A stretch of 64,000 bases of DNA, from contig NZ_CP019605.1 of assembly GCF_001997295.1 (NCBI RefSeq), positions 2,170,001 through 2,234,000 of the forward strand, read 5' to 3'. The first letter of the stretch is position 1. Every line of letters starts with the position of its first letter. A program made the translations under genes and the position numbers. The DNA is from Tessaracoccus flavus (GTDB lineage: Bacteria > Actinomycetota > Actinomycetes > Propionibacteriales > Propionibacteriaceae). The notes under the pieces are model-generated. The model had not been told where the DNA came from and made no database searches. It saw nothing but the letters and a program-made list of their open reading frames with translations. Below are positions 14,064-35,512 of this stretch, one piece after another.

Positions 14064-14717
14064 GTGAACAAGCGAGCTACGCACCTTGAGCCCCCGAACG
14101 CCGCCAGCTGGGCCTTCGCCGAGGACTACGTCGAGCCGTCCGCCGAGGTCGCGCAGGCCCGGGACGACGCCACCCTGGGGGGCCTCACCCCCGTAACCAC
14201 CGGAGTTGCTGCCACGCTGAAGGTGCTGACTCGCGCGATCGGCGCCAAGGCCGTCGTCGAGGTCGGCACCGTCATGGGCGGGTCGGGGCTGAGCTTCCTC
14301 GAGGGCATGGGGCCCGACGGGATCCTCACGTCGATCGACGCCGAGGCGGACAACCAGATCCCCGCCCGGCAGATCTTCAACCGGGCCGGCGTTCCGTCCT
14401 CCCGCTTCCGGCTCATCGCCGGCTCTCCGATCGAGATCATGCCGAAGCTCCGCGACGGGGCCTACGACATCGTCTTCATCAACGGAGACAAGCTTGAATA
14501 CGTGGAGTACGTGGCCGGCTCGCTTCGGCTGCTGCGCCACGGGGGCCTACTGATCGTCAACGACGCCCTCTGGCACAACAAGGTGGCCGACCCGAACGAC
14601 GAGACCGACGAGTCGATCATCATCCGTGAAGCCCTCGACGCCGTCACGACGAGCGAGTCCTACACCCAGGCCCTGTTGCCCGCCGGCAACGGTCTCCTGC
14701 TGGCCGTCAAGGACTGA
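14064..14717 (+). CDS. Class I SAM-dependent O-methyltransferase (family 3)
   Basis: The 217-residue protein belongs to the cation-dependent O-methyltransferase family (catechol and caffeoyl-CoA type). Motif I VVEVGTVMGGSGLSFLEGM binds SAM, TSIDAEADNQIPARQIF holds the acidic adenosine contact, and IVFINGDKLEYVEY carries the metal-binding residues, although the usual Asp is replaced (FINGD rather than FIDAD). Mycobacteria have a homologue next to sigE. The substrate is unknown. Its 3' end faces glgC across the 20-bp-lattice repeat element, which may terminate both transcripts. Confidence 0.85.
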   Translation: MNKRATHLEPPNAASWAFAEDYVEPSAEVAQARDDATLGGLTPVTTGVAATLKVLTRAIGAKAVVEVGTVMGGSGLSFLEGMGPDGILTSIDAEADNQIPARQIFNRAGVPSSRFRLIAGSPIEIMPKLRDGAYDIVFINGDKLEYVEYVAGSLRLLRHGGLLIVNDALWHNKVADPNDETDESIIIREALDAVTTSESYTQALLPAGNGLLLAVKD

Positions 14718-14741: not shown

Positions 14742-14961
14742 CGCCAACCGCCAGGACGAAACGCCAACGCTGAGAGCCGAACGCCAACGGTCCGAGGCGA
14801 ACGCCACCCTTCCTGGCGAAACGCCAACGCTGAGAGCCGAACGCCAACGGGCATTCGTTGTCGCCGACGAGAATCATCGACGCCCCCGACGTATCGGGGG
14901 CGTCGATGATTCTCGTCGGCGTTCGGGCTTGTCTGTTGGCGTTTCCGTCTGCCCGTTGGCG
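14742..14961. repeat. 20-bp-lattice inverted array with central hairpin, copy 1
   Basis: Six direct units beginning CGCCAAC (one is CGCCACC) start at 14742, 14762, 14782, 14802, 14822 and 14842, exactly 20 bp apart. A 60-bp hairpin follows at 14862-14921. Two units in the opposite orientation then end GTTGGCG at 14941 and 14961, again on the 20-bp grid. Units 2 and 5 are identical over all 20 bases and units 1-3 resemble 4-6, giving a 60-bp superperiod. The element fills the gap between two convergent genes. A 20-bp period cannot be coding. It shares its architecture with 34041-34320. Confidence 0.9.
14862..14921. terminator. Perfect 28-bp stem hairpin in lattice copy 1
   Basis: Bases 14862-14889 are the exact reverse complement of 14894-14921, with a 4-nt loop CGTA. 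The outer arm begins CGCCGAC, a variant of the flanking unit. No T-tract follows, so a bidirectional terminator role is an inference from its place between convergent genes. Confidence 0.6.
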
Positions 14962-14987: not shown

Positions 14988-16214
14988 TCAGTCGCGCGGG
15001 ACGACGACGTCCTTACCCACGACCACGATGCCCGTGTCGGACACGGCGAAGCCGCGGGCCCTGTCGTGCTCGTGATCGACACCGATCTGAACGCCGTCCG
15101 GGACCACGACGTGCTTGTCGAGGATCGCCCGGCGCACCACGGCGTCGCGGCCGATGCGAACCGAGTCCATGAGGACCGAATCGGAGACCTGGGCCCACTT
15201 GTCGACGTGGACGTTGGGGCTCAGCACCGTGCGGTCCACCTCACCACCGGAGATGATGCAGCCGGCAGACACGATCGAGTCCTCAGCCCGGCCCCGGATG
15301 ACGAACTTGGCGCCGGGTAGCTGCACCTGATCCGTCCAGATCGGCCACTCGCTGTTGTACAGGTTGAACTCGGGCTCGATGCTGACCAGGTCCATGTGCG
15401 CCTCGTGGAAGGCGTCGATGGTGCCCACGTCGCGCCAGTAGTTGACGTCCTTCTCCGTGGCGCCGGGCACCTGGTTGTCCCTGAAGTCGTAGACCTGGGC
15501 CTCCCCCTGGCCGGTGAACCACGGGATGATGTCGCCGCCCATGTCGTGGCGGGCGGTCGGGTTCTCGGCGTCCGCTCGCAGGGCATCCACCAGCGCGTGG
15601 CGGCTGAACACGTAGTTACCCATGGACGCGAAGGACTCGTCCGGCGAGTCTGGGAGCCCGGGCGGGTCGGACGGCTTCTCGAGGAAACTCTTGATCTTAC
15701 GATCGGGCGCGGCGTCGATGATGCCGAACTCGGTGGCGTCCCGGCGCGGCACGCGGATGCCGGCGACCGTGGCCCCGAGGCCGGAGTCCACGTGGGCGTC
15801 GATCATCTGCTCGACGTCCATCCGGTAGATGTTGTCCGCCCCGAAGACGACGACGTAGTCGGGGTTCGCGTCGCGGATGAGGTTGAGGGACTGGTGGATC
15901 GCGTCGGCGCTGCCCTGGTACCAGCGGGGGCCAAGGCGCTGCTGAGCCGGCACCGGTGCCACGTAGTTGCCCAGCATGGTGGAGAAGCGCCACGTCTTGG
16001 CGATGTGACGGTCCAGCGAGTGCGACTTGTACTGGGTGAGCACCGCAATCTGCCGGAGGTTCGAGTTGGCGAGGTTCGACAACACGAAGTCGATGAGGCG
16101 ATAGGTGCCGCCGAACGGCACCGCAGGCTTCGCGCGGTCGGCGGTGAGCGGCATCAGCCGCTTGCCCTCGCCACCCGCAAGGACGATGGATAGTACTTTC
16201 GGACGAGCGACCAT
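14988..16214 (-). CDS. glgC: Glucose-1-phosphate adenylyltransferase
   Basis: GlgC makes ADP-glucose from ATP and glucose-1-phosphate, committing carbon to glycogen or to maltose-1-phosphate. The 408-residue protein has the nucleotidyltransferase motif [13 protein letters not shown] near the N-terminus, the [20 protein letters not shown] segment and a C-terminal left-handed beta-helix ([19 protein letters not shown]). The ATG at 16214 is chosen over a TTG two codons upstream because a TAGGTT -10 box sits 6 nt before it. The gene is divergent from glgM, as in mycobacteria, with 129 nt shared between them. Confidence 0.96.
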
Positions 16215-32829: not shown

Positions 32830-33948
32830 ATGGGCGACGCCCTCAGCTATCTCCTGGCGGGGATCACGAGCCTGACCTGGCAGTCGGTGGTGATGCTCGC
32901 CGTCGGGCTCCTGCTCGTATGGCTGGCAGTCAAGAAGGAGTACGAGCCGCTGCTGCTACTGCCCATCGGTGCGGGCGCGATCCTGGCCAACATCCCCTCC
33001 TCGCCGCTCGTCGGCGAGGGCGGAATGCTGACCACGCTGTACGACATGGGAGTGAGCAACGAACTCTTTCCACTTCTCATCTTCGTGGGGATCGGGGCGA
33101 TGACGGACTTCGGACCGCTCCTGGAGAACCCGAAAATGGTGTTGCTGGGCGCGGCCGGACAGTTCGGCATCTTCCTTACGCTGATCCTGGCCCTCGTCCT
33201 CGGTTTCACCCAGCCGCAGGCCGCGTCGATCGGCATCATCGGCGCCATCGACGGGCCGACGTCGATCTACGTATCGAACAAACTGGCCCCGGAACTGCTG
33301 GCCCCCATCACGGTGGCGGCCTACTCCTACATGTCGCTGGTGCCGATCATCATGCCTCCGATCATGCGGGCGCTCACCACCCCGGCGGAGCGTGCCATCA
33401 AGATGCCCTACACGAGCCGCGAGATCTCGCAGCGCACCAGGATCCTCTTCCCGATCATCGTCACGCTCGTCGTCGGGGTGCTGGTGCCGTTCGCCACCCC
33501 GCTGATCGGCATGCTGATGCTGGGCAACCTGATGCGGGAATCGAAGGTCGTCGAGCGGCTGACCGGAGCCGCCTCGAATGAGCTGACCAACATCGTCACG
33601 CTGTTCCTGGGCCTGGCCATCGGCTCGACGATGGTGGGAGAGAAGTTCCTCAACGTCGCGACGCTGCTCATCCTGGCGCTGGGTCTGGTGGCCTTCTGCC
33701 TCGACACTGTCATGGGTGTGCTGTTCGGCAAGCTGATGAACGTGTTCAGCGGGGGCAAGTTCAACCCGCTCATCGGCGCGGCGGGGATCTCCGCGTTCCC
33801 CATGGCGGCTCGGGTGGTCCAGCGCGAGGCGCAGCGCGAGCACTTCGACAACTTCCTCCTCATGCACGCGATGGGGGCCAACGCGGCCGGCCAGATCGCC
33901 TCGGTCGTGGCCGGCGGCGTCCTCCTGGCTCTGATGGGCGCAGCCTGA
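32830..33948 (+). CDS. mmdB: Sodium-translocating decarboxylase beta subunit (OadB/MmdB)
   Basis: The 372-residue polytopic membrane protein releases CO2 from carboxybiotin and exports Na+ with the energy gained. Characteristic segments are GVSNELFPLLIFVGIGAMTD, FGPLLENPKM, GIIGAIDGPTSIYVSNKLAP (region of the sodium-site Asp), NLMRESKVVERL, and a C-terminal MGANAAGQIASVVAGG. The ATG at 32830 lies 1 nt after the mmdC stop. With mmdA, D and C it forms a full pump cassette. Such pumps are well known from Veillonella and Propionigenium, less so from actinobacteria. Confidence 0.92.
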   Translation: MGDALSYLLAGITSLTWQSVVMLAVGLLLVWLAVKKEYEPLLLLPIGAGAILANIPSSPLVGEGGMLTTLYDMGVSNELFPLLIFVGIGAMTDFGPLLENPKMVLLGAAGQFGIFLTLILALVLGFTQPQAASIGIIGAIDGPTSIYVSNKLAPELLAPITVAAYSYMSLVPIIMPPIMRALTTPAERAIKMPYTSREISQRTRILFPIIVTLVVGVLVPFATPLIGMLMLGNLMRESKVVERLTGAASNELTNIVTLFLGLAIGSTMVGEKFLNVATLLILALGLVAFCLDTVMGVLFGKLMNVFSGGKFNPLIGAAGISAFPMAARVVQREAQREHFDNFLLMHAMGANAAGQIASVVAGGVLLALMGAA

Positions 33949-33986: not shown

Positions 33987-34035
33987 GCGAGCCCTTCGGT
34001 ACGCGGCCATTCGTTCCTCACGGCCGCTACTCAGC
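33987..34035 (+). repeat. Dispersed CCCTTCG...TACTCAG repeat, copy A
   Basis: The pattern GCCCTTCGGTACG ... CGGCCGCTACTCAGC resembles 60725-60770. Similar short repeats are common between genes of actinobacteria. This copy ends where the lattice element begins. Confidence 0.55.
34020..34035 (+). repeat. 16-bp direct repeat, left of lattice copy 2
   Basis: ACGGCCGCTACTCAGC is repeated without change at 34405-34420, so the two copies bracket the lattice element. A related copy (CGGCCGTTACTCAG) is at 34380-34393. Confidence 0.8.
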
Positions 34036-34040
34036 TTTCT

Positions 34041-34320
34041 GGCCGACGCAGGGACCGCAACGCCAAAGAAGAGACCGCAACGCCAAAGAGGAGACCGCAA
34101 CGCCAACGTGGATCGGAACTCGCCGACGATAACCATCGACGCCCCCGATATCTCGGGGGCGTCGATGGGTTTCGGGGGCGAGTGGGTGTGACCGTTGGCG
34201 TTTCGGGGGAACCGTTGGCGTTCCGGTGAGGCCATTGGCGTTGCGGTGAAGCAATTGGCGTTCCGGTGGAGCCGTTGGCGTTGCGGTGGAACCGTTGGCG
34301 TTGCGGTGGAATCGTTGGCG
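34041..34320. repeat. 20-bp-lattice inverted array with central hairpin, copy 2
   Basis: The element is 280 bp, exactly 14 steps of 20 bp. Left arm: a degenerate unit at 34041, then CGCCAAA at 34061 and 34081, and CGCCAAC at 34101. Centre: a 60-bp hairpin. Right arm: seven units ending TTGGCG at 34200, 34220, 34240, 34260, 34280, 34300 and 34320, consensus TTSCGGTGRANCCRTTGGCG. The right units are the reverse complement of the left ones. The gap 33949-34411 between mmdB and dapC holds this element, its flanking repeats and no gene. Confidence 0.92.
34121..34180. terminator. 28-bp stem hairpin in lattice copy 2
   Basis: Bases 34121-34148 pair with 34153-34180 in 24 of 28 positions around a 4-nt loop. 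It matches copy 1 closely, with one compensatory T-A to C-G change at stem position 13. A role as bidirectional terminator is inferred from the convergent neighbours. Confidence 0.55.
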
Positions 34321-34404
34321 TCAGGGACGTTGTCGGGCACTGCCAACAGGTTCCGAGCCCCTGCCCTCGCGCCGACTCACGGCCGTTACTCAGGGAAACG
34401 TCGG

Positions 34405-34420
34405 ACGGCCGCTACTCAGC
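34405..34420 (+). repeat. 16-bp direct repeat, right of lattice copy 2
   Basis: ACGGCCGCTACTCAGC, identical to 34020-34035. It supplies the last codons and stop of dapC on the opposite strand. Confidence 0.8.
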
Positions 34421-35512
34421 GACAGTCGATAGCCGGGCGACCGCGGCGTCGATGCGCTCGTCCGTGGCGGTGAGTGCCACCCGGACGTGCTGCGCGGCAG
34501 CGGCGCCGTAGAAGTCCCCGGGGGCGGCGAGGATGCCGCGCTCGGCGAGCCAGGCCACGGAGTCGCGGCAGTTCTCGCCTCGCGTGGCCCACAGGTACAG
34601 CGACCCTTCCGAATGGTCGATGCGGAACCCCGCCGCTTCAAGCGCTGGGCGCAGCTTCGCCCGGCGAGCGAGATAGCGGTCCCGCTGCTCCTCCACGTGA
34701 GTCTGGTCGCCGAGCATCGCGGCCATCGCAGCCTGGATCGGGGCGGGCACCATCATGCCGAGGTGCTTGCGGGCGCCGACCAGTTGCTGCACGATCACCG
34801 GGTCGCCGGCCACGAAGCCCGCCCGGTAGCCGGCCGCGTTGGAGCGCTTCGAGAGCGACCCGACCGCGAGAAGGTTCGTGAGGTCGCCGTCGTTGACGCG
34901 GGGGTCGAGCACCGAGTAGGGCTCCGCCTCCCAGGCGAACTCGCCGTAGCACTCGTCGCTGGCCAGGACCGCGCCACGCTCCCTGGCGGCGGCGACGAAG
35001 GCGCGGAGCACGTCGAGGCTGAGGATCTGCCCGGTGGGGTTGGCCGGCGAGTTGATCCACACCAGGGAAGCGTCGGCCGGCAGCGCGCCGGGATCGTCCA
35101 GCGGCACCGGCCGTGCCCCTGCTGTGAGCGCCCCCACCTCGTAGGTGGGATACGCGCACTCCGGGAAGACGACGGCGTGGTCCGCGCCGAGCGCGAGAAG
35201 TGTGGGCAGCCAGCCGACCAGTTCCTTGGTCCCCACCACCGGCATCACTGACTCGTGGGACAACGGCACCGCCCGCCAACGGCCGGTCAGGTAGTCGATG
35301 ATGGCCTGCCGGACCCGCGGTGTCCCCCACACCGTCGGGTAACCATGCGCATCCGACGCCTCCGCGAGCGCTTCGCGCGCCAGGGCGGGGGTGGGGTCGA
35401 CGGGCGTGCCGACGGAGAGGTCGACGATGCCGTCCGGATGCGCCGCGGCCGTCGTCTTGGCGTCGGCCAGGGTGTCCCAGGGGAAGTCAGGCAGGCGGGC
35501 GCCGAGCGCCAT
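34412..35512 (-). CDS. dapC: Succinyldiaminopimelate transaminase
   Basis: DapC is the PLP aminotransferase that makes N-succinyl-LL-diaminopimelate. The 366-residue class I/II fold protein opens with ARLPDFPWDTLADAKTTAAA, typical of actinobacterial DapC. It has VWINSPANPTGQ, SDECYGEF and the PLP lysine in VGSLSKRSNAAGYRAGF. It follows fdxA by 3 nt, a pairing conserved in actinobacteria. The last codons lie in a dispersed repeat, so the C-terminus (LSTVAE) may have been replaced by that sequence. Confidence 0.94.
   Translation of the reverse strand: MALGARLPDFPWDTLADAKTTAAAHPDGIVDLSVGTPVDPTPALAREALAEASDAHGYPTVWGTPRVRQAIIDYLTGRWRAVPLSHESVMPVVGTKELVGWLPTLLALGADHAVVFPECAYPTYEVGALTAGARPVPLDDPGALPADASLVWINSPANPTGQILSLDVLRAFVAAARERGAVLASDECYGEFAWEAEPYSVLDPRVNDGDLTNLLAVGSLSKRSNAAGYRAGFVAGDPVIVQQLVGARKHLGMMVPAPIQAAMAAMLGDQTHVEEQRDRYLARRAKLRPALEAAGFRIDHSEGSLYLWATRGENCRDSVAWLAERGILAAPGDFYGAAAAQHVRVALTATDERIDAAVARLSTVAE

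Follow-up and report, generated by a model that had tools for sequence, protein, structure and literature searches.

The window analysed here, 64,000 nucleotides in length (2170001-2234000 of a 3.22-Mb chromosome), contains a 280-bp element (34041-34320) in which two arrays of 20-bp units flank a hairpin. It belongs to a family found at dozens of places in the source genome, whose members keep a common register, lie preferentially near the 3′-ends of genes, and combine a maintained stem with conserved cores and freely varying spacers. We put at about even the chance that 34041-34320 is one copy of a dispersed bidirectional transcription-end element, consisting of a hairpin and a protein array.

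Elements in the window

The initial annotation placed the element between convergent mmdB and dapC, and profile matches identify the two neighbours accordingly. As had been proposed, the element itself is not coding.

32830-33948, + strand: left neighbour, sodium ion-translocating decarboxylase subunit beta (gene call; TIGR01109)
34041-34120, − strand: left arm, four 20-bp units (from sequence)
34121-34180, no strand: central module, stem and loop (sequence and folding)
34181-34320, + strand: right arm, seven 20-bp units (from sequence)
34412-35512, − strand: right neighbour, dapC, convergent (TIGR03539)

The arms are mirror images, CGCCAA starting each step on the left and TTGGCG ending each step on the right. 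All seven right units first described are exact (TTGGCG at 34195, 34215, 34235, 34255, 34275, 34295 and 34315), whereas only three of the four on the left are (CGCCAA at 34061, 34081 and 34101), the fourth, at 34041, being degenerate (GGCCGA). The hairpin has a stem of 16 bp (34133-34148/34153-34168) and a loop of 4 (34149-34152), and folds to −39.7 kcal/mol (z −8.6). The grid runs on through the central module as degenerate core-like sequences, CGCCGA at 34121 and GGGCG at 34176, and the inner cores start 94 bp apart (14 mod 20). The arms are thus in register with the hairpin, as claimed, although the CGCC inside the hairpin starts at 34140, one base off the grid, not 34141. No Rfam covariance model matched the window at gathering level. 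A second repeat, CTCACGGCCGCTACTCAG, is found on both sides of the element (34017-34034, 34376-34393 and 34402-34419); portions of the flanks that bear it occur again near some other copies.

A de novo search for inverted arrays of direct repeats returned only two elements in the window, this one and another.

14064-14717, + strand: left neighbour, without NCBIfam match (gene call, profile search)
14742-14961, no strand: second family element (motif search, folding)
14988-16154, − strand: right neighbour, glgC-like, convergent (NF002023)

The second element carries CGCCAA at 14742, 14762, 14782, 14822 and 14842, TTGGCG at 14936 and 14956, and between them a hairpin (14862-14921) with a 28-bp stem and a loop of 4.

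The family in the source genome

The strict 20-bp phase is upheld by pattern counts: TTGGCG-N14-TTGGCG matches 12 times in the window (shuffle mean 0.02) and 404 times (210+194) in the source genome, against one match (0+1) for the reversed pattern. The genome-wide search suggested at the outset, for the spaced motif around a hairpin, leads to dozens of loci. The core geometry CGCCAA-N88-TTGGCG gives 77 matches, some of them one element recounted 20 bp further (at least 66 distinct positions among the matches listed), and 0 in the reversed control. The initial annotation would have regarded the element as a chance local expansion had no other region or relative kept the phase; it recurs throughout this genome and in some relatives. 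Chance tandem expansion is rejected on the number of loci and on the spacers, adjacent ones being identical in 14 of 176 cases. Spacer identity is higher within arms (0.52) than between arms (0.36), so local duplication contributes.

Clusters of cores were compared in the window and 60 stretches of the source genome (61 pieces in all), the stretches having been fetched for carrying cores or resembling the query, which somewhat favours cores. Among the 69 clusters, 54 are two-armed and ordered CGCCAA-array, centre, TTGGCG-array, and 15 have a single arm by the chain criterion; inward-facing arrangements show no preferred spacing. Neighbouring cores on the same strand lie 20 bp apart 316 times, 21 bp apart 19 times and 19 bp apart 12 times. 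The register with the hairpin was measured for cores beyond 30 bp in those clusters whose hairpin centre is clear (stem score of at least 14; 54 of 68), the 69th cluster being left out at a stretch edge. On the right 166 of 199 such cores, and on the left 151 of 193, fall at 44+20k from that centre. The unit consensus is approximately C-S-G-TTGGCG-TT, followed by variable bases, and the asymmetric core, read outward from the hairpin, approximately C-S-GTTGGCGTT.

Pairing and sequence conservation

As a single sequence, 34041-34320 folds to −177 kcal/mol (z −8.3), and the initial annotation allowed that the whole might fold as one long hairpin, that is, a structured RNA or cruciform in which the left arm pairs with the right. 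Stem pairing was compared within and between elements in two forms. The first sets the centres by palindrome score (54 elements), which favours pairing; the second fixes them by the arrays alone (43 elements). With array-set centres 0.788 of the stem cells are paired within elements against 0.727 between them (0/5000 permutations, n=43), and stem positions 5, 14 and 17 show exchanges of one standard pair for another. The effect is smaller in this form but retained. With palindrome-set centres the stem excess stems from the 35 elements outside the subfamily of the window copy; within that subfamily alone it is not significant (n=19, 109/1000).

The arms behave differently from the stem. Spacer positions nearest the hairpin (30-41 and 52-61) show no pairing excess with array-set centres in the 43 elements, positions 70-83 being slightly high (175/5000). 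With palindrome-set centres pairing at core positions is slightly higher inside an element than across elements (0.848 vs 0.812 and 0.739 vs 0.685, 0/1000 each), an excess beyond the reach of the array-set test because the cores themselves define those centres; positions 103-142 also show a within-element excess in the palindrome-set form (15/1000). Permutation reveals no excess of arm covariation in the related genomes G020 and G045 (n=26), and the numbers of left and right units are uncorrelated (rho 0.04, n=65). The cores, by contrast with the spacers, are conserved. For 29 copies selected on the likeness of their hairpins, heterozygosity in units 1 and 2 is 0.08 and 0.16 in the cores as against 0.56 and 0.62 in the spacers; the core value climbs to 0.48 and 0.55 in units 3 and 4.

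From the spacers essentially without covariation, the conserved cores and the uncorrelated unit numbers we conclude that what is maintained is not one long hairpin. Both the test of covariation and that of arm counts disfavour it, and despite the stability of the single-sequence fold and the small core excess we consider it extremely improbable as an explanation of the family. The elements read as a probable structural hairpin flanked by what would be sequence-specific sites, and register-locked sites for a protein would fit the alignments better than one long hairpin.

Location relative to genes and along the chromosome

The elements are intergenic and biased toward the 3′-ends of genes. Thirty of the 69 clusters lie between convergent genes, 33 between tandem and 5 between divergent genes, with 1 at an edge. 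With two clusters set aside, that at the edge and a pair lying within a gene (n=67), the convergent position is over-represented, at 30/67 against 101/544 gene pairs in the same stretches (p 9e-8); p is 8e-4 when the comparison is with the 175 gaps at least 150 bp long. Gene calls were made with a codon model, and the background includes the element-bearing gaps. Divergent gaps hold 5 of the 67. The 32 tandem cases lie a median of 65.5 bp from the upstream gene end and 169 bp from the next start, 25 of them being nearer the former. More than half of the elements are non-convergent, although 54 of the 69 clusters are two-armed, and the arm on the side of the incoming gene is not significantly longer (3.6 vs 2.7 units, p 0.11). 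The elements of sister species likewise lie between genes, with a convergent bias that is weak or absent: 8/23 against a background of 16/79 in G020, 4/15 classed elements against 12/57 gene pairs in G018 (where 3/15 are divergent), and 1/6 against 2/43 in G014, G043 and G053 together.

Along the chromosome the stretch at 0.84-1.70 Mb, which includes the GC-skew switch and was picked after inspection of the data, holds 4 of the 66 elements among the matches listed, where 17.6 are expected. Such sparseness, together with the long, cooperative-looking arrays, would suit sites for a chromosome-organising protein (nucleoid-associated, segregation or nucleoid-occlusion), tolerated in 3′ gaps. We regard this explanation as highly unlikely: the interval was chosen post hoc, tests over the whole chromosome are weak (KS p 0.05, Rayleigh p 0.10), and both the maintained stem and the convergent bias are left unexplained.

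Proposed mechanism

In the reading that we prefer, the GC-rich hairpin would serve as an intrinsic-type terminator working in both directions. Each side would present a row of asymmetric protein-binding sites, one per 20 bp, locked to the hairpin centre, which a sequence-specific DNA-binding protein would fill cooperatively, as neighbours on almost the same face of the helix. The bound rows would then act as a roadblock and insulator, halting transcription from the gene on either side. What we infer here is the protein, the cooperativity of its binding, the termination and the insulating role, and a bidirectional transcription block or a protein array, both raised in the initial annotation, would still be the best readings. 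Placement on nearly one face is plausible, since 20 bp corresponds to 1.9 turns and the 31 bp of a sister species to 2.95; other species have 19 or 21 bp.

Two sets of features agree with these roles. The stem is stable, GC-rich, kept by pairing and close to gene 3′-ends, as would be expected of a bidirectional intrinsic terminator, and the fixed asymmetric core with constant helical spacing and free spacers is what a direct-repeat protein array would show. Against a terminator, the stem has no U-run behind it (T fraction 0.27 over 10 nt), and terminator-like sites number 0 against 0.3 in shuffles. The flanks shared among copies of the subfamily fit simple copying, a point against the mechanism. 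Also counted against it are the non-convergent majority, the arm on the incoming side not being significantly longer, the weak location bias in sister species, the residual pairing in the arms and the non-significant stem excess within the subfamily.

The motif could instead act in RNA. Transcripts from both sides read the CGCCAAC strand, and the units, being T-poor, A/C-rich and unstructured, could load Rho ahead of a pausing hairpin, making the elements Rho-assisted bidirectional terminators. Over 316 units the arm RNA is indeed poor in T (A.295, C.366, G.282, T.058), and the two arms of the window element fold less than shuffles (z +1.4 and +1.7). C is only modestly above G, however, and a period of nearly whole turns has no obvious reason in RNA. 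Rho sites are degenerate, whereas here a core of 9-11 bp is fixed at a 20-bp register. We consider this explanation quite unlikely.

Relatives and the spread of the family

The 20-bp pair is above background in 5 of 39 genomes of the genus, the source included (404, 25, 24, 13 and 7 matches); the rest have at most 4, near controls. Among 197 genomes of the family none outside the genus exceeds 6. A triple lattice searched in 396 genomes of the phylum is found 124+106 times in the source and 1-3 times in three others, where the units shown are near-identical tandem repeats. The core is common to G014, G020, G045, G043 and G053, and spacers and hairpins differ. In G014 the layout is unchanged, with different spacers and a different hairpin; in a comparison of four of its two-armed loci, the inner cores were 94 or 114 bp apart at three, and the fourth had 21-bp steps. 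The form in G020 and G045 is compact: its steps measure 19 and 20 bp, and the central palindrome is bordered by the core itself. Two draft contigs of G014 (C95 and C355; loci L114 and L116) stop at or inside arrays, so draft genomes may undercount repeat families of this type. When 60 stretches (up to 20 kb each) from 33 relatives were scanned de novo for inverted arrays, 10 weak clusters with one or two hits apiece came up, compared with 5 in a Markov control; such arrays are therefore not general in the genus at the density of the window. Plasmid and phage collections gave no match (records very near the source were possibly left out), and in viral contigs 23 stretches contain the triple lattice, 21 of them as a single match by pattern count.

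The 420 bases after dapC contain no GTTGGCG element in 29 dapC loci of relatives. At this position G018 carries TTGAGCCGGACACGG every 31 bp, as mirror arrays around a small palindrome. These arrays occur at at least 18 loci in G018 (L179, L217-L233, L236), with weak matches in two other genomes, and most of them keep register with the centre (8 or 9 mod 31). The motif is unrelated to GTTGGCG, yet it has the same inverted, mostly register-locked layout. A palindromic family, GTTGAGCAG...CTGCTCAAC, matches at about 18 places or more in G041 (L180, L235), some matches being short; two tandem copies follow dapC in that genome.

We advance only tentatively the wider reading that these elements are a new type of bacterial boundary, a two-way terminator hairpin between mirror, register-locked protein filaments, in which protein and motif turn over and the architecture stays. 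The turnover would be that from GTTGGCG every 19-20 bp in some species to TTGAGCCGGACACGG every 31 bp in another.

The main rival to the transcription-end reading is a selfish, REPIN-like repeat: a non-autonomous mobile element (REPIN, BIME or MITE-like) whose arms bind a transposase acting in trans, for which 3′ gaps are safe harbours, and which spreads by copying without host function. Dozens of copies in one genome are what it predicts. The subfamily of the window element comprises about a dozen copies, 76-90% identical in best BLAST hits, several with homologous flanks. In the close pair G020 and G045 an orthologous element (L098 vs L131) differs by exactly one 19-bp unit, and another is absent from one of the two. 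The families are species-specific, and the weak location bias in sister species also suits a mobile repeat. Against it, a profile search for the RAYT/IS200 domain Y1_Tnp, whose control was positive in 5 of 14 genomes, found the domain in none of the 39 genus genomes, among them the source. The cores of the inner units are nearly invariant amid randomised spacers, unlike the decay of mobile copies, and the one empty site read, in the G020/G045 pair, shows no clean target duplication. On this balance we think a purely mobile origin rather unlikely. Both could be partly true, with the element spreading by copying and being kept for function.

Comparison with known systems

Plasmid iterons and the TnsB end sites of Tn7 are direct repeats of 19-22 bp set in rows, to which a protein binds cooperatively, and pneumococcal BOX sequences are modular repeat elements. 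By their general descriptions these are set apart from the present family, which is dispersed chromosomally at gene ends as mirror rows around a hairpin. BIMEs are dispersed extragenic inverted repeats around a hairpin. The elements resemble them, and REP doublets or REPINs as summarised in PMC3116915, in their many dispersed extragenic copies and inverted repeats around a hairpin. They differ from REPINs in having open-ended 20-bp direct-repeat rows in register with the hairpin, with cores fixed and spacers free. The letters CGTC are present in the stem (letters alone, REP tag position and tail aside); five phyla are listed as having CGTC repeats in PMC3733652, with no occurrence of the word Actinobacteria. 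The identity of a RAYT-driven REP or REPIN is rejected on the profile search for Y1_Tnp in the 39 genus genomes.

Filaments of BldC offer a second likeness, namely asymmetric direct repeats of varying number, along which the protein binds cooperatively on one side of the DNA, according to the summary in PMC5859096. The BldC sites outlined there are about one turn apart, have an AATT core and lie in promoters, whereas the elements here have a period of two turns, a GTTGGCG core and mirror pairs around a hairpin at gene ends. A third is with the GC-rich intrinsic terminators of Streptomyces (TERMITe, PMC12207403), described in outline as long, stable, few-U hairpins at 3′-ends with covariation in the stem. 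Only 3-4 Us are given there for the 10 nt after the hairpin, and the portion of that report available makes no mention of flanking repeat arrays.

The initial annotation knew of no named element with this layout, and none was found; the titles and abstract openings listed by literature searches contain no description of it, which is weak evidence of absence. As far as the partial accounts go, REPINs, BldC filaments and Streptomyces terminators share one aspect each with the family, and none has the full combination. We therefore class the family with the dispersed palindromic repeats of intergenic regions, as a variant that may quite possibly prove to be more than one.

Significance

To our knowledge, it is not settled how high-GC actinobacteria stop transcription between convergent genes. 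U-runs are rare in these bacteria, as outlined for Streptomyces in PMC12207403. Dozens of elements of the same geometry with free spacers amount to a natural mutational scan, and the 31-bp version in G018 would show how such systems switch motif.
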